Part shown: positions 41,350-53,371 of the stretch, piece by piece
How the letters are laid out: every line of letters begins with the position of its first letter
How positions within the stretch are numbered: the first letter of the stretch is position 1
From: Chelatococcus sp. YT9
Lineage (GTDB): Bacteria; Pseudomonadota; Alphaproteobacteria; Rhizobiales; Beijerinckiaceae
Direction of reading: 5' to 3'
NCBI RefSeq assembly: GCF_018398315.1
Contig: NZ_JAHBRW010000001.1
Coordinates: 1,236,001 to 1,300,000 of the forward strand
DNA: 64,000 nucleotides
The notes under the pieces: generated by a model
Databases searched by the model: none
Seen by the model: the letters and a program-made list of their open reading frames with translations, nothing else
Told to the model about the DNA's origin: nothing
Translations under genes and position numbers: made by a program

Positions 41350-42190
41350 GCGCCGCTGCGTCGACCTCCAGTGATCTCGTAAGGCGTGTCCAAGCCTCAG
41401 AGCGCCCTGTGATCATGCAGAGCGAACGGGAAAGCCCCTCCGGCACTGTGAAGAGGCCCGGCCGCCGCCCCATTCCTTCCCGCAGCGCCGCGACGATCTC
41501 TCCAACGGTGACCGACTGCGGGTCGGCAACGATGAAGGCAGACCTTGGCGCCGCCGGCAGGGCGAGGCAGTGGCGCACGGCGCCCGCGAGGGTCTCGACC
41601 GCCACAAGGGAGCGGCGTCCCTTGAGGCCGTTCACCGGCAAGGGAATGGGAAGGCGCGCCAGCCACAGCAAGGCGCCCATGTTACCGCCCACCCCCTGCC
41701 CATAAACCAGCACCGGCCTGAGCGCGACCCAGTCCCCCCCGAGTTCGGCTAATGCTTGCTCCGCGGCAAGCTTGGAGCGGCCATAAGCGTCCTCGGGGCG
41801 CGGCACATCAGCTTCCGTCAGGACGTGCGTGGCCGTGGGGCCGCTCTGGGCACGGATAGACGAGATGAAGAGGAAGCGTCGCGACGGCCCGGCTGCTTTC
41901 GCCAACGCCACCGTCGCTTCCGTATTCACGCGGTGATAGCGCTCCTCGGCAATGCCCGGCCCGGCGTGCGCAATGCCCGCCGCATGGACAACCGCGTCCA
42001 CTCCGGCTAGCGCTTCGCTCCAGTCGACAGGGCGGTCGAGGTCGCCCACGACGACCTGCTCGACCCCCGCCGGCAGGGCGGCAGGCCGTCGGGTAGCGGC
42101 GCGGACGATGATCCCCGCGCCCATGAGATCGGTGATGAGATGGCGGCCGACGAAGCCCGTCGCCCCGGTGAGGAGAACCCGGCGCGCCAT
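41258..42190 (-). CDS. NAD-dependent epimerase/dehydratase (extended SDR)
   Basis: A 310-residue nucleotide-sugar SDR with GATGFVG (9-15), SSI at 110-112 and the catalytic YxxxK (Y136, K140 in DAYGRSK). It probably acts as a UDP-hexose epimerase or 4-ketoreductase for surface glycan synthesis. Its ATG overlaps the stop of the WecA-like gene (TGATG), so they form one unit. The C-terminus extends 92 bases into the convergent dehydratase gene. A longer N-terminal frame exists but only reads the neighbouring gene out of frame. Confidence 0.88.
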   Translation of the reverse strand: MARRVLLTGATGFVGRHLITDLMGAGIIVRAATRRPAALPAGVEQVVVGDLDRPVDWSEALAGVDAVVHAAGIAHAGPGIAEERYHRVNTEATVALAKAAGPSRRFLFISSIRAQSGPTATHVLTEADVPRPEDAYGRSKLAAEQALAELGGDWVALRPVLVYGQGVGGNMGALLWLARLPIPLPVNGLKGRRSLVAVETLAGAVRHCLALPAAPRSAFIVADPQSVTVGEIVAALREGMGRRPGLFTVPEGLSRSLCMITGRSEAWTRLTRSLEVDAAALRQSGFVPQLQTRLQLRLLAAGSCAPRTRG

Positions 42191-43224
42191 CAGCCTCTCC
42201 GTTCCGCGACTGTCGCGCGCGGCCGGCCGAAACGGGCCAGCACGATGGCCACCGCGACAAGACCAGCTATCAGGAGCCCGGTGGGGATAAAAATCCCCTC
42301 GGCGAGAACCGCGGCTGTCGCCAGCGCGGCCAGCACCAGATTGAGCACGAAGACCGTTCCGACGACATCCATCACCGTGAAGCCATTGTCCGTGGCACGT
42401 TGGTAGAAATGGCTGCGATGCGCCTGCCAGACCTTCTCGCCGCGCCTGAGGCGCATGAGAAGCGTGAGCGTCGCGTCCGCGAGATAATAGAGCGGTAGGA
42501 GAAGCGCCGCCGTGAGATGCCCTTCCCCCGCGAGGCGATAAAGGAGGAACCCAAGGATAAGGCCGATGGGAAGCGAGCCGACGTCGCCCAGAAACAGCTT
42601 GGCGACGGGACGGTTGAAGGGCGCGAAGCCGAGCATCGCGCCACACAGCCCCATCGCAACGAGCCCAGCATCAAGGGGAAGGGTGCCGAAAAGCGATAAC
42701 AGCGCTAGCGCGGCCGAAACCGGCACGACTTCGGCCACCGTGATCCAGTCCAGCCCATCCATGAAATTGACGAGATTGACGAACCAGACACCAGCCAGGA
42801 CGACCAGCGCGAATTCCACGGGAGCGGGAAGAAGAGCAGGAAACAACCGGATCTCGCCCACCGCGGCCACGGCAAGGGCGACGGCGCCGAATTGGAGCAG
42901 CAGGCGCGGAAGAACCGGCAACGGCCGGATGTCGTCGAAAGCGCCAATTAGGGCCAAGACCACGGCGCCAATCGCGGCCGGTGTGAACACGGCAATCGAG
43001 CCTGGTGCGAGAACCCAGACGCCGGCGCCTGCCGCCAGGAGCAGCGCGGCCAATACGGCAATGCCCCCTCCCTGTGGCGTCGGCACGCGATGGCTGGAAC
43101 GGGCATTCGGACGGGCCAGCGCATAGCGCCGCATGAGGGGAAAGAGAAGAAAAACGAGCGCTGCGGAGAGCACCGCCGCTACGAGCCCGACACTGGCGAG
43201 GCTTACCAGAAGTGATATCGTCAT
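42190..43224 (-). CDS. Undecaprenyl-phosphate sugar-1-phosphate transferase (WecA/WbpL-like)
   Basis: A 344-residue polytopic membrane enzyme. SHRVPTPQGGGIAV near the N-terminus, the aspartates in GAFDDIRPLP, VNFMDGLDWI, FLGDVGSLPIG and the later HRSHFYQRA are family hallmarks. It transfers a sugar phosphate to undecaprenyl phosphate, the first step in O-antigen or exopolysaccharide assembly. The start MTISLLVSLASVG gives a leader that becomes the first helix. Coupled to the epimerase, it may prime the glycan for which the dehydratase supplies the sugar. Confidence 0.92.
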   Translation of the reverse strand: MTISLLVSLASVGLVAAVLSAALVFLLFPLMRRYALARPNARSSHRVPTPQGGGIAVLAALLLAAGAGVWVLAPGSIAVFTPAAIGAVVLALIGAFDDIRPLPVLPRLLLQFGAVALAVAAVGEIRLFPALLPAPVEFALVVLAGVWFVNLVNFMDGLDWITVAEVVPVSAALALLSLFGTLPLDAGLVAMGLCGAMLGFAPFNRPVAKLFLGDVGSLPIGLILGFLLYRLAGEGHLTAALLLPLYYLADATLTLLMRLRRGEKVWQAHRSHFYQRATDNGFTVMDVVGTVFVLNLVLAALATAAVLAEGIFIPTGLLIAGLVAVAIVLARFGRPRATVAERRG

Positions 43225-43374
43225 GCCCCGCCAGTCCTTGCCCGCGACAATGGAGAGTTGCTGGCCGGACAATAACGACCGGTTTCCCGATCGCAAGAGA
43301 CGGGCGCCGCCTTTCCGCAAGGCAATGCGCTGATCTGATATCGAGGGGAGGAAGCGGCGGTAGGCCCAATCCCG

Positions 43375-44244
43375 TCAGGCAGGCACTTCCGCTGCCACCG
43401 GAGCAAAGACGAGAGATTGCCCCTGGCGTGCCACGAATGAGCCGGGCATAGCCTTCGTGAGATCCGCTTCCATGTCGAGCAGGAAGGCATCATTGTGCAT
43501 CGGGTGCATGTGGAAAGCAGCCAGCTGCTTCACGTCAGCGCGGCGGCACAGCTCCACACCCGCCCTGATCGTGGAATGCCCCCACCCGCGACAATGGCTG
43601 TATTCGTTCTCGCAGAACATTGCGTCATAGATGACGAGGTCAGCGTCCCGCACGAACTCGACAAGGTTCTCCGGCGGCCAGTTTTCGCCATGCTCGATAT
43701 CGCTGACATAGCAGACACTGCGGCCGCCATGGTCGAATCGATAGGCAGTCGCCCCCGACGGGTGGTCCAACAGGCAGGTACGAACGGTCTGGCGCCCGAA
43801 TGACAGCGTCTCACCGGCTCTGAAGCCGTTGTAGATGAACTTGGCCGGCAGCTGCGCGAGCGTAACGGGGAAAATCGGCGGCGAAAACAGCCGCTCAAGC
43901 GGCTTCTCCGCAGTTTGCCCATCGAGGTTGCCGCAAGACAAGCGGATTGTCTTGTCCGGATAAAGGGCTGGCTTGAAGAATGGCAGGCCCATCACATGGT
44001 CGAGATGGAGATGGCTCAGCAAAATCTCGATCTGTGGCGGCGCAGTCTCCTTGATGGCCAAGCCGAGATTGGTGATCCCCGTACCCGCATCAATGATGAA
44101 AAGCTGATCACCGCAGCGGACTTCGACGCAGGGTGTATGGCCGCCAAAGATGACGTGATCCGTTCCGCAGACCGGAATAGAGCCGCGAACGCCCCAAAAC
44201 TTGACGAGGAGCGCATCATCGGCTGGAGCAGGATAGGCGCACAT
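43375..44244 (-). CDS. MBL-fold metallohydrolase
   Basis: A 289-residue metallo-beta-lactamase-fold enzyme with VKFWGVRGSIPVCG at the N-terminus and the metal motif HLHLDH (78-83), plus a late FHMHPMHND. The FWGVRGS opening resembles phosphodiesterase- or PhnP-like members. The substrate is unknown. It is 150 bases upstream of the WecA-like gene on the same strand and could share its transcript. Confidence 0.85.
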   Translation of the reverse strand: MCAYPAPADDALLVKFWGVRGSIPVCGTDHVIFGGHTPCVEVRCGDQLFIIDAGTGITNLGLAIKETAPPQIEILLSHLHLDHVMGLPFFKPALYPDKTIRLSCGNLDGQTAEKPLERLFSPPIFPVTLAQLPAKFIYNGFRAGETLSFGRQTVRTCLLDHPSGATAYRFDHGGRSVCYVSDIEHGENWPPENLVEFVRDADLVIYDAMFCENEYSHCRGWGHSTIRAGVELCRRADVKQLAAFHMHPMHNDAFLLDMEADLTKAMPGSFVARQGQSLVFAPVAAEVPA

Positions 44245-44541: not shown

Positions 44542-47124
44542 TCATCCCTCCGCTGGAATGACTGCAGCACCCCCGCCAGTGGTAACAGGTGCCGAACCGC
44601 CGGGGATCTCCACGCGATCCTGCGCCGTGAGGACATGGTCACCCTCGAAACGGATGATCTGCGAGAAAGCGCTCAGATCGAAGGTGGAAGGCACCACCGC
44701 GATGAGGCTGCCGTTCGCCATGAACAAATCCAGGCGCTCCATCAGGGCGGCGATCTCGGCGATGGAGAGACCGTTGAAAACTCCATCGAGAACAAGAAGA
44801 TCCGGACGGCGGACGAGGCAGCGCGCCAGATCGATCAGTGCGACGTTCAGGTGCTGGAGCCGCTCCGCCCCGTGGCTGACATGGGCAGACAGGCCGAGAC
44901 GCAGCACGTCCTCATCGAGGCCGAGATTGCTGAGAACGCGCCGCGCGGTCGCGTGAACCTTGTCCTCCGCGCCGGCCACGTCATAGGCGATGCGCCCGAA
45001 TAGAAGGTTATCGCTGAGCGAGGCGGCGGCGCAGATCGCATCCGCTTCATAGAACGAGATCGCCGGCCTGAGGCTAGGTGGAAGCAGCCGCGCAAAAGTG
45101 TGCCGAGCTGCAACGAGGCGTTTTTCCATCGCCTCGTCGAGAACGCCGAGACGATGCCGCGCTTCACAGTAGCGAAGTGCGAGGGCTATCTGCCGGTCAC
45201 GATCACGCCCGGTCTCTGCCGACCGCCGACGCTCCGATCGACGCGCCACCATGTCGGCGCAGAGGCCACGCTCGGCGGCGCTGAAGAAGGCGAAGCGCTG
45301 GAAGAGCGGATGCCCGTCCGGCACGCCGTCGAAGATCTCCACGAGGCTGGAGGCAATGGCAAACCCCATCTCCGCGAGCGGGCGCGTCAGATCCTCGGCT
45401 TCGAGCACAGCCCGCAGGAAGGGGTTGGAGGCAAGATGGACCTCTCGGAACGTGTCGCCGACGGGTACCCCATGCAGAATGTTCTCAGCGACGGTGCCGT
45501 AGCGATTGTAGCGATTGGGCTCGAAGGGATCGACCAGGTCGCCCAAACCGTTGGAGCTGAGCTCCGCCCGGATAGCACGGCGGACCTCCACCACCCGCTC
45601 CGCCAGTCTGGGCGCCGTCTGGCTGCTGACACTTGTGGAGAGGCCAAGGGCATAGGCATCATCATCGATGCCGGCCGTGCGCATGACATCGCAGAGCACC
45701 GCATCGATGTCCTCTCCGCCAAGATCGGGGGCTCCATAGAGAATATTTTGACGCAAGGTGCCGTCGAGAATGATGGGTGTATGGCCCGCGAGCGCAACGC
45801 GTCGGGCACGGCGAGCGGCCGGCACCGTAAGAAGATTGATGCCGTCCAGCTTGATCTCACCCGAGGAGGGCTCAAGCGCTCCACCGAGCGCCGCCGCAAT
45901 GATATGTCCGCCTCCCTCATCATCCGTCACCAGAGCCGTGCGTGTCGGCAAAGGAATATCGAGGTCGACAGCAGATAGCCGATGGCTGGTCAGCGGATCG
46001 AAAATCGACGCCCGGTCGATACGGAGCTGGCTCCAATTTTCCGGCAAATCTGTATCGGAAAAACGCCGGGCCCGCGCCTTGAGGTCGCCGATCGACCGCG
46101 CGATCTCGTCGAAGAGTTGCGTTGCGGCATGCCGCTCGCGCGTCCAGAGCGCCATGGCCTCGACGGGGCGGATCAGCAGGAATGCCGCGCTGACGGCGGC
46201 CAGCAGACCACCGGGTGTGAGCTTGCCCTGCATCATCAGCCAGCCCCCCACCATGAGCATCAGCACCGGCATGCCATCGCGCACGATGCGCAGGGCGATG
46301 CCCAGAAGCGTTAGCTGGCCTAGCGGCGGCCGGTGCTTGTGCGCGACATTGGCCAGACGCTCGGCGAAATGCTCGGCCTCGCCGTCAGCCGTGCCGTGCA
46401 CGCGAATCGCGGGCAGGCGCTCGACCGCGTGACGCCCCATCTGGATCGCCTCGGTCTCGCCCGCGCTCATGCGCCTCACCATCGTGTCCCGCTCGGCCTC
46501 CCGTGCCGGGACGAGCATAGCGTCGAGCATGGCCGCCACCATCAAGGCCACGCCAAGCCAGAGGTTCAGCGTGAAGACGAACAGGATGACGATCACGCCT
46601 TCGGCGAAAAACAGCGCGGGCGCCGCCAATGCCCGCCCCAGGAACGGCGTGACAGTCGCAACGCGATGACCGAGCGAGGTGATCGCGTTCTCCACGGCCT
46701 CGCTGGTGGTGCGTTCAGCCACCAGATGGCGAAAGAGAAGGAGCCTGAGGTCGTCGGCAAGGCTAGGCCCGAGGCGCGCGCTGATCAGCCGGATGGACAC
46801 CCTGAGCACCGCCCTGAGGAGGACGAGCGCGGCAATGACCATCAACCCGACCGTGAAAGCCTGGTCCCGGCTCAGCGGAAAGCCGGAGAAGAGCACCCGC
46901 TCGCCCCCGAAGTGCCACGACAGGGGCAAGGCGAGCCTCAGGAAGGCATCGACCTGACCGTCCGCGCCCGCGTTGCCGATGAAGACCATATCGACGAGTT
47001 CGCGCGGCACCAGCAACAGCAGCCATACCACCGGCAACAGCACGGCGACGATGAGGAAAGCCAGACAATGGACGCCCCGGCTGCGAGTCCAGACATATCG
47101 GATCGGATTGCGTTCCATCAACAA
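44542..47124 (-). CDS. Degenerate ABC exporter-like protein (no Walker A lysine)
   Basis: An 860-residue protein with an N-terminal six-helix exporter-like membrane domain (about 15-320) followed by a nucleotide-binding-like region. The place expected for Walker A reads TDDEGGGHI (400-408), with no lysine or following Ser/Thr. The signature region is SHGAERLQ rather than SGGQ-like, and Walker B LLVLDG (776-781) lacks the glutamate. Between them lie three copies of an ENIL-type module (about 459-464, 547-552, 705-710), whereas a normal exporter has one. A large insertion (about 510-690) is not part of a standard ABC domain. The frame is intact, so it looks like a maintained, non-hydrolysing relative. 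An ATG two codons in is an alternative start. Confidence 0.8.
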   Translation of the reverse strand: MLMERNPIRYVWTRSRGVHCLAFLIVAVLLPVVWLLLLVPRELVDMVFIGNAGADGQVDAFLRLALPLSWHFGGERVLFSGFPLSRDQAFTVGLMVIAALVLLRAVLRVSIRLISARLGPSLADDLRLLLFRHLVAERTTSEAVENAITSLGHRVATVTPFLGRALAAPALFFAEGVIVILFVFTLNLWLGVALMVAAMLDAMLVPAREAERDTMVRRMSAGETEAIQMGRHAVERLPAIRVHGTADGEAEHFAERLANVAHKHRPPLGQLTLLGIALRIVRDGMPVLMLMVGGWLMMQGKLTPGGLLAAVSAAFLLIRPVEAMALWTRERHAATQLFDEIARSIGDLKARARRFSDTDLPENWSQLRIDRASIFDPLTSHRLSAVDLDIPLPTRTALVTDDEGGGHIIAAALGGALEPSSGEIKLDGINLLTVPAARRARRVALAGHTPIILDGTLRQNILYGAPDLGGEDIDAVLCDVMRTAGIDDDAYALGLSTSVSSQTAPRLAERVVEVRRAIRAELSSNGLGDLVDPFEPNRYNRYGTVAENILHGVPVGDTFREVHLASNPFLRAVLEAEDLTRPLAEMGFAIASSLVEIFDGVPDGHPLFQRFAFFSAAERGLCADMVARRSERRRSAETGRDRDRQIALALRYCEARHRLGVLDEAMEKRLVAARHTFARLLPPSLRPAISFYEADAICAAASLSDNLLFGRIAYDVAGAEDKVHATARRVLSNLGLDEDVLRLGLSAHVSHGAERLQHLNVALIDLARCLVRRPDLLVLDGVFNGLSIAEIAALMERLDLFMANGSLIAVVPSTFDLSAFSQIIRFEGDHVLTAQDRVEIPGGSAPVTTGGGAAVIPAEG

Positions 47125-48357: not shown

Positions 48358-48378
48358 CGCGCGGATTCAATCCGCGCG
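48358..48378. terminator. Hairpin at the convergent ends of dapD and the DSD1-type gene
   Basis: CGCGCGGA pairs with TCCGCGCG across a five-base loop. It begins just after dapD and overlaps the stop of the convergent gene. There is no T tract, so it may act only weakly. Confidence 0.45.
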
Positions 48379-49533
48379 GCCGCGTCCCTCGACGGCCCAT
48401 TGCGCCACAAGCCTGTCGCCATCGACCACATGCAGAACATCGTGCATGTTGATGGTGGGATCGCAGTGCGGAACCGTGCATTCGACGACCGTGCCAATGG
48501 GCAGGGTGGCGCAGCCGGAGGCTGGAAGGATGCGGCCGAATTCATCGCCGCACCATTCGATCGTACCGACAAGCCGCTCGCCTGAAGGTCCCGGAAGCAG
48601 CACGCGCGGCGGCGGTCCGTCCCAGGCGAAGCTCTTGCTGCCCCCATCGGTGATGGCGAAGCCTGCCGATGAATGGCCGATGACGGTGACAGCGATGCGC
48701 AGGGCCGAGCCGAAAACGAGCTCGCCGCTGCCCGCGATATCGACCGAATTGTAAGCCTCATCCATGAAGACATAGGAACCCGGCTGCACCTCCGTGAACA
48801 GGCGGCGCTCGGCATCCAGCACATGGCTGCCGGTGCCGCCGCCGGAGATGATGGCAGGGGCGAGCGAGGCAGCAGCGAGGGCGTCCAACATCGGCACCAG
48901 CCGCCGGGCAACCTCGTTGTTGGCCGCACGCCGCTGGTCAAAATCATCGATATGCTGGACACGCCCCTGATAGGCCTGCACCCCGGCAAAACGCAGATAA
49001 GGGTGGTCAGCCGCGGCACGCGCCAGCGCAACGGCATGGGCGGGCTCCGCCACGCCACTGCGCAGCAGGCCGACATCGAGATCAACCACCAGATCGATGC
49101 GCGTGTCATGCCGCCTGGCGGCGTCTCCATAGGCGGTTATGAGGTCCGCCCGGTCCGCCACCACCATCAGGCGAGCTCCGCGTGCGGATGCCTGCGCCAG
49201 CGCGTCGATCTTGGCGAAACTCGCCACAGGCGCTGTCAACATCAGATCGTCGATGCCGGCCCCGAACAGGGCGAGCAGCTCACCTGGCTTGGCGCAACAA
49301 ATGCCGAGCGCGCCTGCGGCGAGCTGCCGCCGCGCTATCTCTGCTGACTTGTGTGACTTGGCATGGGGCCGCATGCCGACACCCGCCCGCCGGCACGTCT
49401 CCGCCAGCGTTGCGAGGTTGCGCTCAAAGATCGGCAGGTCGAGCACCGCGGCCGGGGTTTCAAGATTTGCGCGGCTCGCCCCAATCCCCAATTTCGGCGC
49501 GTTCAACGCCGCTGCACCCACGCTGTTCATCAC
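48367..49533 (-). CDS. DSD1-family PLP enzyme (D-threonine aldolase / D-serine dehydratase-like)
   Basis: A 388-residue fold-type III (alanine-racemase-like) PLP enzyme. The PLP lysine is K59 in MRPHAKSHKS, and the C-terminal metal site typical of the family is H356-C357 in VPHCDPTINMHD. Members cleave D-threonine or 3-hydroxy-D-aspartate, or dehydrate D-serine, with a divalent metal. It is the last gene of the long leftward operon; its ATG overlaps the hydantoinase B stop by four bases. This suggests that a D-configured hydroxy-amino acid is released or used by the pathway. Confidence 0.87.
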   Translation of the reverse strand: MMNSVGAAALNAPKLGIGASRANLETPAAVLDLPIFERNLATLAETCRRAGVGMRPHAKSHKSAEIARRQLAAGALGICCAKPGELLALFGAGIDDLMLTAPVASFAKIDALAQASARGARLMVVADRADLITAYGDAARRHDTRIDLVVDLDVGLLRSGVAEPAHAVALARAAADHPYLRFAGVQAYQGRVQHIDDFDQRRAANNEVARRLVPMLDALAAASLAPAIISGGGTGSHVLDAERRLFTEVQPGSYVFMDEAYNSVDIAGSGELVFGSALRIAVTVIGHSSAGFAITDGGSKSFAWDGPPPRVLLPGPSGERLVGTIEWCGDEFGRILPASGCATLPIGTVVECTVPHCDPTINMHDVLHVVDGDRLVAQWAVEGRGRAD

Positions 49534-51293
49534 GATTGTCGCTCCTGTCGGAGACGCCTTGTTGCGGCTGCGTCTACGGAGAGATCATCGTCGACGATGA
49601 CCCCGTAGTCACGCAATGCCCCCTCACGGGTCACCTTGCCCTCGCGGATGTCGTCGAGGACGCGCGACGCTTCCCGCAGGAACGGATTGCCATAACCACC
49701 GCCGCCAGCGCCCGTGAGGCGAAAGACATCGCCGGCCTTAGCCGTGAAGCTCTCCATCGGCATGGTCGGCAGATTGTGTGTGGTGCCGTCCAGCCTGATC
49801 AGGAGGTGCTCGGACGAAGAGCCCGTACCGCCACCCTCGACGCCGTAGGGCGGATGCGCACGCCGATCCCCACGCAAGGTGAAGCGCGCGTCTGTGAGAA
49901 ACTTGAAGCTGCGCACGAAGGCAAGGCCGCCTCGGAACTCGCCTGGCCCGCCGGAGTCCGGCACCAGGCCGTAATCGAGCACCTCGATCGGCATGTCCGT
50001 CTCGATCATCTCAACTGGCTGGTTCGAGAGATTGGCGGCGGGGTTCGAAATACCCTCGATGCCATCCTTGGTGGCGCGGGCACCCCAGGTCCCGACGACC
50101 ATCTCATTGAGCACGAACGGCCGGCCTTGGTGTATGCCACCCGATGCGAGCAGATACGGCCCGCCTTCCGAGCCACCAATGGCGCGTTCGGGCACCACCT
50201 GCGCCAGCGCCTGCATGATCGCATCGAAGACACGATAGCCGACGACCCCGCGGGCGCCGCAGGCCGCGGGATAGCGCGGATTGACCAGACACCCTTCCGG
50301 CGCGTGCACGGTGATAGGCCTGAGATAACCCTCGCAATTGGGAATATCCTGCTGCGACAGGCAGCGAATGGCGCTGAAGGCCGCCGATTCGGGAAGCGAA
50401 ATCGGACAGTTGATGCTGGCAGCCACCTGGTCAGCCGTGCCGGCAAAGTCGATGTCGATCGTATCATCGTTGACGGTGACGGTCGCCACGATGGGAAGCG
50501 GCGCCGGGTTCTCGCCCACGCCGTCAATATAGTCCGTCGCGCGATAGACGCCGTTCGGCAGATCGCGGATCGTCTCGCGCATCATTGCCTCGGCATGGTC
50601 ATGAAGGGCCTCGATATAGCTGTCGAGTTGCGCTTGCCCGTAACGGGCAACGAGGGCTTTCAGTCCCTCCTCCGCCACGTTGCATGCGGCGATCTGCGCG
50701 CGGATATCTCCGAGCACCTCGACCGGCGAACGCGTGTTCGCCTCCAAGATGCCGAGGACGGCTTCATTTGGTTTGCCGGCTTCATAAAGCTTGAGCAGTG
50801 GAAGTCTCAACCCTTCCTGCTGAATCTCTGTGGCATAGATGGCTACACTCCCGGGTACAATTCCGCCGAGGTCGGTGTGATGAGCGACGGTCGCCGCGAA
50901 GCCGGCCAGCACGCCGTCGGCGAAGATCGGTTTGAGAATATAGACATCCGGGAGATGTTGCCCGCCCGACCCGTAGGGATCGTTGGCAATGAGCACATCG
51001 CCCTCCTTGAGCGAGGCGCCGAAACGCTCTCGCACGAACTGCATGATACGCGGGAATGAACAGAGCTGGATCGGCAGCGTAAGACCCTGCGCGATGACCC
51101 TGCCCTTCGCGTCGCAAAGGCCGGTCGAATAATCCATGATGTCGCGCACGACCGGGGAATAGGCGCTGCGCATGATGATCAGCGCCATCTCGTCAGCGGT
51201 GGAGGCGAGCGCGTTGCGGATGACCTCGAGGGTGATCGGGTCGATCGCGCAGGCAGCGCGCGCCCCGGCAGCGCTCATGTCAGCTTCGCTCAT
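49530..51293 (-). CDS. Hydantoinase B / oxoprolinase family subunit
   Basis: A 587-residue HyuB-type subunit. It begins near DPITLEVIRNALASTADEMALIIMRSAYSPVVRD and has GDVLIANDPYGSGGQHLPD, EGCLVNPRYPAACGARGVVGYR and a Gly-rich C-terminal GAGGGGYGNPFLR, all hallmarks of the family. With HyuA it forms an ATP-dependent amidohydrolase acting on hydantoins, oxoproline or similar cyclic amides. It overlaps HyuA upstream and the DSD1-type gene downstream by four bases each. Confidence 0.93.
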   Translation of the reverse strand: MSEADMSAAGARAACAIDPITLEVIRNALASTADEMALIIMRSAYSPVVRDIMDYSTGLCDAKGRVIAQGLTLPIQLCSFPRIMQFVRERFGASLKEGDVLIANDPYGSGGQHLPDVYILKPIFADGVLAGFAATVAHHTDLGGIVPGSVAIYATEIQQEGLRLPLLKLYEAGKPNEAVLGILEANTRSPVEVLGDIRAQIAACNVAEEGLKALVARYGQAQLDSYIEALHDHAEAMMRETIRDLPNGVYRATDYIDGVGENPAPLPIVATVTVNDDTIDIDFAGTADQVAASINCPISLPESAAFSAIRCLSQQDIPNCEGYLRPITVHAPEGCLVNPRYPAACGARGVVGYRVFDAIMQALAQVVPERAIGGSEGGPYLLASGGIHQGRPFVLNEMVVGTWGARATKDGIEGISNPAANLSNQPVEMIETDMPIEVLDYGLVPDSGGPGEFRGGLAFVRSFKFLTDARFTLRGDRRAHPPYGVEGGGTGSSSEHLLIRLDGTTHNLPTMPMESFTAKAGDVFRLTGAGGGGYGNPFLREASRVLDDIREGKVTREGALRDYGVIVDDDLSVDAAATRRLRQERQS

Positions 51294-53371
51294 GCCGCGT
51301 CTCCACTGAGCGTGATGGCAATGTTGCCTGCCTCGTCGAGGCTCGCCGCCTGGCCCGGCCCGATGACACAGGTGCTGTCGTAGTCCTCGATCACGAAAGG
51401 TCCGCGCCGGGGCGTAGCGTCCAGGTCGCCGCGGCCGATGACCGCAACGGTCGCGGGTGTGCTCTCGGCGGCGAAGACGACGCTTCGATCGGCCCGCCGC
51501 AACGGCGTGTCAGGATGGAAATGCGGAGGCGGCGCGACGAGCGGCAGGCGCACGGTGAGGCGCGCATTGACGAGATGCACCTCATCACCTGCGGAGCGAT
51601 GACCGTAGGTGCGCTCATGCTCGCGATGGAACAGCTCCCTCAGCTCATTCACGGCAAGTCGTTCAGCCGGCACGGTGAGCTCATAAGCTTGCCCGACGTA
51701 GCGCAGATCGGCGGCCCGATGAAACGTCGCGGCCGCCTGATCATAGCCTTCCAGCGTCATGATGCGGCGGGCGTCTGCCACGAGCTCGTCGAACAAGGCT
51801 GCAAGCGCCGCGTCATCGATCTCCCCCGGCCGATGTCGAGACGGCCGCACGAATTCCTGCTCCACATCGGAGCGCAGCAGCCCGAGCGCGCTGAACACAC
51901 CGGCGCCGCGCGGAATGATGACGCGCCGGATCCCGAGCGCCATCGCAACCTCCGCTGCCACTACCGGCCCGTTACCTCCGAATGCCACAAGCGTCGACTG
52001 ACGGGGATCTCGACCGCGATAAGTGGACACGGCTTTGACAGCCCGCGTCATGGTGGTGACCGCGAGGGTCAGAACACCACGCGCCGTGCGCGACAATTCC
52101 AGCCCGAGCGGTCTCGCGACCTGATCGTTCAGCGCCGCGCGTCCAGCCTCCGCCTGAAGCGGAAAGGTGCCACCCGCGAGCGCCTCATTATTGATGTAGC
52201 CAAGCGTGAGAAAGGCGTCAGTCAGCGTCGCCCGTGTGCCACCAAGCCCGTAGCAGACAGGCCCGGGATAGGCGCCGGCGCTCTGTGGGCCGACCGAGAC
52301 CTGATTCATGCGGTCGATCGCAATAATGCTGCCGCCGCCGGCCCCGATCTCCGAGACATCGATGAACGGCATCTTGATGGGGTAGCCCCCGCCCTTGACG
52401 AGCTTGCTCGACAGATTGATGCCGGCGCCCACTTCGTATTCGGTTGTGCGCGCGGGCTGGCCGTCCTCCACCAATGCGGCCTTGGCCGTCGTGCCTCCCA
52501 TGTCAAAACTGATGATGCTGGGTTCAGCTTGGCCCGGAAAGAGGCGGGCACAGGCGATGACGCCGGCAGCCGGCCCCGACTCCACGAGCGACGCGGCGCG
52601 CCGGACCGCCGATTCCAGCCGCATGATTCCGCCGCCGGAATGCATCATGTCCACCGCGCAGGTGACGCCGATAGAGGCGAGCCGCGCGGTCAGGGCGCTG
52701 GCGTAGTTGCGAACCACCGGGCCGATATAGGCATTCACGACAACCGTGCTGGTACGCTCGTATTCTCGAATCTCGGGAAGGATCTCCGATCCCCGGCAGA
52801 TGTAGACATCCGGGCCGAGTTCGCGCCGGAGGATTTCCTCTGCCGCGATTTCGTGAGCGGGATTCGCGTAGGCATGCAGGAAGCTGATGGCAACCGCCTC
52901 AGCGCCGGCTTCGCGGAAGTGCCGCGCGGCGGCAACGACATCGTCCTCCGACAACGGCAGCCTCACGCCGCCGTCGGCGCTCAGTCGCTCGCGCACTTCA
53001 AGCCTGAGCCGCCGCGCCACGAGCGGTTTCGGCTTGTCATACTGAAGGTCATAGAGCACGGGGATGCGCAGCCGGCGCATCTCCAGCACGTCGCGGAAGC
53101 CGGCCGTCGTCAACAGGCCCGTGCAGGCGCCCTTGTATTCCAGGATCGCATTGGTCGCGACGGTCGTCGCGTGGACTATGCCGGTGATACGATCGGGCGT
53201 GGTCTGAAACTCCTCGACCAGCGCCTTGATCGCCATGGCGATACCACGACTATAATCGTCAGGCGTTGAGGGCACCTTGCGCGTTTCTATCAAACCATCG
53301 TTGCGCGCAACAACCACATCGGTGAACGTGCCGCCGATGTCGACGCCTATCCTATAACTATGTTGGGACAT
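51290..53371 (-). CDS. Hydantoinase A / oxoprolinase family subunit
   Basis: A 693-residue HyuA-type subunit with the actin-like ATPase N-terminus RIGVDIGGTFTDVVV, then STPDDYSRGI, VNAYIGPVV, MHSGGGIM, SFDMGGTTAKAAL and AFGGNGPVVA, typical of the large family. The exact substrate (hydantoin, N-methylhydantoin, oxoproline, related cyclic amides) cannot be set from sequence. It is 32 bases downstream of an ABC transporter ATPase and overlaps HyuB by four bases. Confidence 0.93.
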   Translation of the reverse strand: MSQHSYRIGVDIGGTFTDVVVARNDGLIETRKVPSTPDDYSRGIAMAIKALVEEFQTTPDRITGIVHATTVATNAILEYKGACTGLLTTAGFRDVLEMRRLRIPVLYDLQYDKPKPLVARRLRLEVRERLSADGGVRLPLSEDDVVAAARHFREAGAEAVAISFLHAYANPAHEIAAEEILRRELGPDVYICRGSEILPEIREYERTSTVVVNAYIGPVVRNYASALTARLASIGVTCAVDMMHSGGGIMRLESAVRRAASLVESGPAAGVIACARLFPGQAEPSIISFDMGGTTAKAALVEDGQPARTTEYEVGAGINLSSKLVKGGGYPIKMPFIDVSEIGAGGGSIIAIDRMNQVSVGPQSAGAYPGPVCYGLGGTRATLTDAFLTLGYINNEALAGGTFPLQAEAGRAALNDQVARPLGLELSRTARGVLTLAVTTMTRAVKAVSTYRGRDPRQSTLVAFGGNGPVVAAEVAMALGIRRVIIPRGAGVFSALGLLRSDVEQEFVRPSRHRPGEIDDAALAALFDELVADARRIMTLEGYDQAAATFHRAADLRYVGQAYELTVPAERLAVNELRELFHREHERTYGHRSAGDEVHLVNARLTVRLPLVAPPPHFHPDTPLRRADRSVVFAAESTPATVAVIGRGDLDATPRRGPFVIEDYDSTCVIGPGQAASLDEAGNIAITLSGDAA

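Follow-up and report, generated by a model that had tools for sequence, protein, structure and literature searches.

A putative ATP-independent pseudo-ABC exporter family of Alphaproteobacteria with a rebuilt nucleotide-binding domain and a frequent cyclic nucleotide-binding partner

The ATP site is the defining feature of ABC proteins. To our knowledge, SbmA has no nucleotide-binding domain (NBD). The accessible part of PMC13316013 describes SbmA as a proton-driven transporter akin to ABC transmembrane domains, single degenerate sites are well known in heterodimeric exporters (accessible part of PMC7756269), and HetC is reported to combine an N-terminal cyclic nucleotide-binding (CNB) domain, which binds ppGpp in vitro, with a peptidase domain and an ATPase with an essential catalytic residue (accessible part of PMC10986499). 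The open reading frame analyzed here, a pseudo-ABC exporter (pABC), was compared with these systems together with its relatives; no description of the pABC family was recognised in the literature searched, a search thin on subscription journals. The following features were located in the window, i.e. the whole 64 kb stretch of DNA under analysis (clade A is defined below):

42190..43320, minus strand: WecA/MraY-type sugar-phosphate transferase (Glycos_transf_4)
43375..44244, minus strand: MBL-fold hydrolase, downstream of pABC (Pfam Lactamase_B_2, 1.3e-15)
44542..47124, minus strand: pABC open reading frame, 860 codons, clade A paralogue
44782..44799, minus strand: Walker B, LLVLDG (residues 776-781)
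44845..44859, minus strand: signature column, LQHLN in place of LSGGQ (residues 756-760)
44872..45150, minus strand: segment copy 3, leading into the X-loop (residues 659-751)
45328..45624, minus strand: segment copy 2, inserted (residues 501-599)
45628..45819, minus strand: segment copy 1 (Q-loop/helical-subdomain) in the canonical place, with AGHTPI (residues 436-499)
45901..45927, minus strand: Walker A position, TDDEGGGHI, without Lys (residues 400-408)
46075..47124, minus strand: transmembrane domain (residues 1-350; Pfam ABC_membrane at 90-321)

A previous, sequence-only reading of this locus had proposed an exporter homologue with a destroyed ATP-binding site, kept open over 860 codons by selection for a different role. 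The open frame proved to be real; its first possible start is TTG, with an in-frame ATG at codon 3. The membrane half is indeed exporter-like: Pfam ABC_membrane was matched at 32.3 bits, above the cut-off of 28 (ABC_tran reached 15.7 bits, under its cut-off of 25), and six long helix regions were seen across residues 1-350 of the predicted model. When this model of the whole protein (pLDDT 81.7, pTM 0.70), structure prediction being among the checks that the same reading had suggested, was searched against the PDB with Foldseek, all 50 listed rows were ABC exporters, the superpositions being loose (TM by query 0.32-0.47, rmsd ~10-35 Å). Based on ABC_membrane, the model and Foldseek, window pABC belongs to the exporter superfamily with the type IV fold.

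Motif columns in the window protein were fixed by alignment to three intact exporters from its own genome. The claimed lysine-free Walker A aligned with their P-loops, and the loss of the catalytic glutamate from Walker B was likewise confirmed, with the Asp retained and the Glu replaced by Gly. The claimed loss of LSGGQ stood, but its assignment to SHGAE was six residues too far upstream, since SHGAE (residues 750-754) falls in the X-loop stretch of the alignment and the true column reads LQHLN. The Q-loop and H-loop regions read AGHTPI and VVPS, respectively (alignments inspected by eye). Window pABC is therefore devoid of three hallmarks of an active ATPase, namely Walker A GxxGxGK[ST], LSGGQ and the Walker B catalytic Glu, and its motif losses were common to three congeners at 92, 92 and 85% identity.

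Walker A and Walker B are ~370 residues apart in the window protein because an insert, located between the Q-loop and the signature, splits the NBD. When compared by hhalign with the same segment of three canonical exporters, copy 1 of the segment gave 98.0%, copy 3 88.0% and copy 2 25.8% (weak), while comparisons between copies gave 97.2% (1-2), 96.4% (1-3) and 99.3% (2-3), and the 30 remaining control pairs were all at or below 4.0%. By hhalign and in the model, the helical-subdomain segment is thus triplicated in window pABC; at the level of alignments and predicted structures, the family NBD is shown to have been rebuilt by two added copies of this segment. The insert modelled alone (pLDDT 90.4, pTM 0.87) displayed an identical order of elements in both copies; none of its 77 listed matches in the PDB had an E value of 0.001 or better (best 0.54), and insert members had zero matches above noise in Pfam. 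The insert profile also hit the phycobilisome linker CpcN (summed E 1.2e-6), a match discarded as chance, as it consisted of four weak stretches, each with an i-Evalue of at least 7.8.

Family members were found at E 1e-40 or better in 21 of 60 relative genomes (the window's own one counted), and fell into two groups, clade A (the window type, ~860 aa) and the rest (~900-1130 aa). Clade A was present in nine of the 60 genomes, eight of which also held the other type; in the window's own genome, the second member is a CNB-linked open frame of 941 aa (G000:C1:3124013-3126640). The insert profile was positive in 98 of 289 sampled alphaproteobacterial genomes (E 1e-10), and in 31 of 398 genomes of a phylum-wide draw (E 1e-6), all of them labelled with the same family, order or class as the window. 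Contigs of named genomes gave zero matches when scanned with the single window protein; scanned with the alignment, at least 574 of 595 stretches were confirmed relatives, and the best 80 of these were all alphaproteobacterial by title, one being titled only Proteobacteria. Other phyla were covered solely by the named-genome scan. Carriers of the family also include rhizobial replicons, Sinorhizobium meliloti pSymB among them. The pSymB copy of S. meliloti 1021 (L227:15001-17235) aligns only from query residue 136, and most other listed strains of the species align from query residue 2; judging from this alignment, the 1021 copy may be shortened or frame-shifted.

In order to describe the state of the ATP site, motifs were counted in 169 aligned relatives (171 unique family ORFs minus two incomplete ones) and three controls. 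The Walker A Lys was present in 43 of the 169, followed by Ser/Thr in 3 and by Asp/Glu in 36; Walker B retained Asp in 64, Glu in 35 and both in 5; the H-loop His was found in 17 and SGGQ in 1, with three rows gapped at signature and Walker B. Both Lys and Glu were missing from 118 members, and a complete ATP-site set from all 169, so that the exporter frame is kept across a family without one complete site. The conservation of the motif losses in orthologues, on which the sequence-only reading depended, was thus observed in congeners and in the wider family alike, and the normal Walker A (GK[ST]) that would have spoken against it was limited to 3 of 169 relatives, all distant. In these K+S+D+E rows (L190, L202 and L203), Asp takes the place of the fourth Walker A Gly, and the signature reads VSQT. 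The view, based on 28 relatives, that the whole family had simply lost the Walker A lysine was abandoned since distant members show GK[DE]. Separately, a member from Methylobacterium crusticola (L070:8758-11832) has LSGGQ together with a Walker A without Lys and a Walker B without Glu, which is, by its motifs, a canonical-looking signature within an otherwise dead site.

A quick-method tree of 102 members plus three controls (the control branches were long and flagged by the program) required at least 11 changes between presence and absence of the Lys. Clade A was recovered as a single long branch (1.13, support 100), and 56 of 58 rows were without Lys in the branch holding Hyphomicrobiales and the window. 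As far as these alignments indicate, the decay of the ATP site in this alphaproteobacterial family is old and graded. Given that 43 of 169 members keep the Walker A Lys, and three keep K, S, D and E, certain relatives may still bind ATP. A non-hydrolysing switch, in which ATP would be bound weakly via residual contacts and the CNB unit would modulate the response, agrees with the GxxxxGK[DE] found in 36/169 and the Walker B Glu found in 35/169, among them many distant members; yet it is very unlikely, as the Mg-binding Ser/Thr has been replaced by acidic residues and the window protein has no K, no signature and no Q-loop Gln.

Selection, a further check proposed by the previous reading, was estimated as dN/dS by the Nei-Gojobori method (own script) in six congener pairs. 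Values for clade A were 0.087-0.115 over the whole protein, 0.071-0.158 in the membrane domain and lowest in the insert (0.026-0.076), and those for the CNB-linked paralogue were 0.046-0.099 overall and 0.023-0.058 in the membrane domain, regional ratios being rough where dS exceeded 1. At the codon level, these values show that the pABC family is under purifying selection. Considering that the same losses recur in congeners and across a large family, and that dN/dS is ~0.1, selection for a role without ATP hydrolysis is well supported, and the same three lines (congeners, wider family, dN/dS) rule out a sequencing error or a pseudogene. There is only a very slight chance that clade A is a redundant, lineage-specific paralogue in early decay which has been kept by chance so far: its branch is long, its NBD is the most altered and a second, better conserved member exists in the same genome, but four congeners, as well as other genera of the family, keep the frame open, dN/dS is low, and the MBL and WecA-type neighbours are conserved in 8 of 9 loci. 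Rather unlikely, too, is an ATP-independent secondary transporter similar to SbmA/BacA, with a membrane domain powered by the proton gradient and an NBD remnant that serves only as a structural lid. This possibility draws on the SbmA precedent, on the strong conservation of the membrane domain in the CNB-linked paralogue, and on three charged columns conserved above 90% in fairly hydrophobic stretches (K93, D152 and D304 of the paralogue, whose placement in the bilayer is putative); nevertheless, the NBD is enlarged and conserved instead of lost, and the membrane domain of clade A evolves faster than the insert.

Gene neighborhoods were compared in 109 loci (the window plus L032-L139), of which 105 were unique after discounting four duplicates (the same gene obtained by two routes), and in which 1565 genes were called mechanically. 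The CNB profile matched 82 called genes, 81 of them being same-strand genes directly 3' of pABC and one a fusion, and a six-frame scan of the remaining loci added 12 further loci with CNB. Overall, 90 of 105 unique loci had CNB, either fused or directly downstream, or 90 of 96 once clade A was set aside. Nearly half of the separate CNB genes overlapped pABC by 4 bases (38/81), and the phosphate cassette GE...R was conserved (81 sequences). The distinct CNB fusions (14) were C-terminal and came mostly from members chosen for divergence; three divergent members, each with a fused C-terminal CNB, occur together in a single 4.2 Mb genome (G212: L196, L197, L198). With such partners, the role of the family points to a signal-linked device. 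The 15 unique loci without CNB comprised all nine clade A loci, including the window, where the whole 64 kb was scanned, and all six loci of a Methylobacterium group, and therefore the window protein should not be taken to be under CNB control. Going by gene order, its CNB link is historical, clade A having lost the CNB gene from the locus. Elsewhere in the same genome, a canonical ABC exporter lies less than 3 kb from a 607-aa frame with a CNB match (G000:C2:246649-249657; L222, L235), a pair that is possibly a second, ATP-competent CNB-linked exporter.

Other neighbors were counted within at most 9 kb on each side of pABC, so that the counts are lower bounds. The MBL hydrolase family lay downstream in 8 of the 9 loci of clade A and was present in 10 of 96 others (18 of 105 overall), with HxHxDH conserved in the 18 sequences; the MBL protein encoded in the window matched a cyclic-nucleotide phosphodiesterase model weakly (54.9 bits vs. 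a cut-off of 400), and ribonuclease Z models scored higher. From its domain content, the MBL protein is the sole signalling-like partner remaining at the window locus. Of the nine clade A loci, eight had the WecA/MraY-type transferase close to pABC and seven a Polysacc_synt_2 gene, while glycosyltransferase clusters were present in at least 68 of the 96 non-A unique loci and in none of the nine of clade A. Cyclases were found near pABC in at least 22 of 105 unique loci (Fer2-cyclase in at least 18, others in at least 6). In 20 Fer2-cyclase sequences, the four Fe-S cysteines and both metal Asp were conserved, and the Asn and Arg only at 60-90%; the window genome encodes, at another location, a Fer2-cyclase 54% identical to that of L049. 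The annotated order in Rhizobium etli CIAT 652 is adenylate cyclase, oligopeptide ABC importer (four genes), redA, redB, glycosyltransferase, pABC and regulator, and it is repeated in Rhizobium acidisoli, where the final gene is annotated as cyclic nucleotide-binding. Oligopeptide ABC importer genes recur beside CNB-linked paralogues (L060-L139, cluster 2/6/7/8), and the importer ATPase cluster, a broad family that maybe includes several different importers, was found in 67 of 109 loci. In the window itself, a BhcC-like aldolase (48367-49533) and hydantoinases B (49530-51293) and A (51290-53371) occupy 48367-53371 of the minus strand, in what looks like a small operon for amide or hydantoin degradation, judging by these genes. 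A mapped transporter phenotype of Agrobacterium (accessible part of PMC9790009) was dropped, as the genes concerned were not linked to the pABC family.

No canonical exporter half was detected among the 1565 called genes of the 109 loci, in a search that recovered 6 of 6 canonical exporters of the window's genome as positive control. This counts against the regulation of a neighbouring exporter, one of the roles previously put forward. It also weighs against pABC as the regulatory half of a heterodimer with its ATP-competent half encoded elsewhere (cf. TmrAB, TM287/288, TAP), a possibility that would fit the degenerate sites of known heterodimers and the several canonical exporters of the same genome. 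Moreover, the loss of both Walker A and signature in one chain would cripple both sites, and we regard such a heterodimer as quite improbable.

Sequences and predicted models together establish an old family with an exporter fold, an impaired ATP site, a rebuilt NBD and, outside two groups, linkage to CNB. On this basis, we hold it moderately probable that pABC is an ATP-independent, second-messenger-linked pseudo-exporter in an envelope-glycan pathway. The frame would be a type IV (ABCB/MsbA-like) ABC exporter that has given up ATP hydrolysis, arising from an alphaproteobacterial family with a rebuilt NBD and a CNB protein encoded directly downstream or fused C-terminally. The enlarged NBD and CNB would form a relay by which cyclic nucleotide controls membrane-domain conformation in place of ATP; the membrane domain would serve as a gate, a flippase/scramblase or a scaffold for a glycan that is lipid-linked or at the surface, in a process concerning envelope glycans and perhaps also peptide import. 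A glycan substrate is proposed because glycosyltransferase genes are the commonest neighbors. A more specific version, in which cyclic nucleotide acting via the CNB subunit is read by the enlarged NBD relay and operates a ligand-operated channel, gate or lipid-glycan flippase, is put forward tentatively, as is its extension that the window clade stands one step beyond and operates without a CNB unit. Besides the Lys kept by some relatives, the lack of CNB in clade A and the Methylobacterium group, and the loose Foldseek superpositions, two further observations run counter to the proposed pseudo-exporter role: cyclase genes are near just 22 of the 105 unique loci, and the glycan neighbors of the two clades are not alike. 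As for the window copy, which is a derived, family-restricted clade A paralogue devoid of CNB, with MBL hydrolase and WecA-type transferase genes beside it, a related ATP-independent job in the glycan pathway is most likely, performed alone or with the CNB-linked paralogue. The label "ATP-binding exporter" given to pABC members in databases is probably misleading, and the family offers a natural test of whether a ligand other than ATP can drive or gate an exporter fold; if the tentative version is true, the NBD of a whole exporter family would have turned from an ATP motor into a second-messenger relay.

Among the known systems compared, components of Pycsar (PADLOC PycTIR and PycC) share with the pABC loci a homologous CNB domain (2.1e-17) and a class III cyclase (8.6e-26), a resemblance expected from general homology and treated as a lead only; pABC loci differ by having no TIR effector, a broad distribution and a stable operon order, and pABC itself had zero matches to PADLOC models at 0.001. 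SbmA/BacA (SLiPT; accessible part of PMC13316013) appear similar to pABC in having an exporter-type membrane domain without ATP drive, but pABC retains an NBD, enlarged and split, which places it outside the SLiPT group as defined by the absence of an NBD. Exporters with degenerate sites (TmrAB, TM287/288, TAP) resemble pABC in that the exporter frame tolerates the loss of catalytic residues, although, in the accessible part of PMC7756269, they keep one canonical site, whereas no canonical half was found near the 109 pABC loci. HetC, like the pABC family, ties a CNB domain to an ABC exporter, and differs by its N-terminal CNB, its peptidase domain and its working ATPase (accessible part of PMC10986499). 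Finally, type IV ABC exporters (MsbA, Sav1866, TmrAB, P-glycoprotein) are alike in membrane domain, NBD fold and domain order; compared with them, pABC appears to be without a working ATP site, as judged from its motifs, its NBD is split by two extra copies of the helical-subdomain segment, and most of the relatives examined have a CNB partner or fusion.
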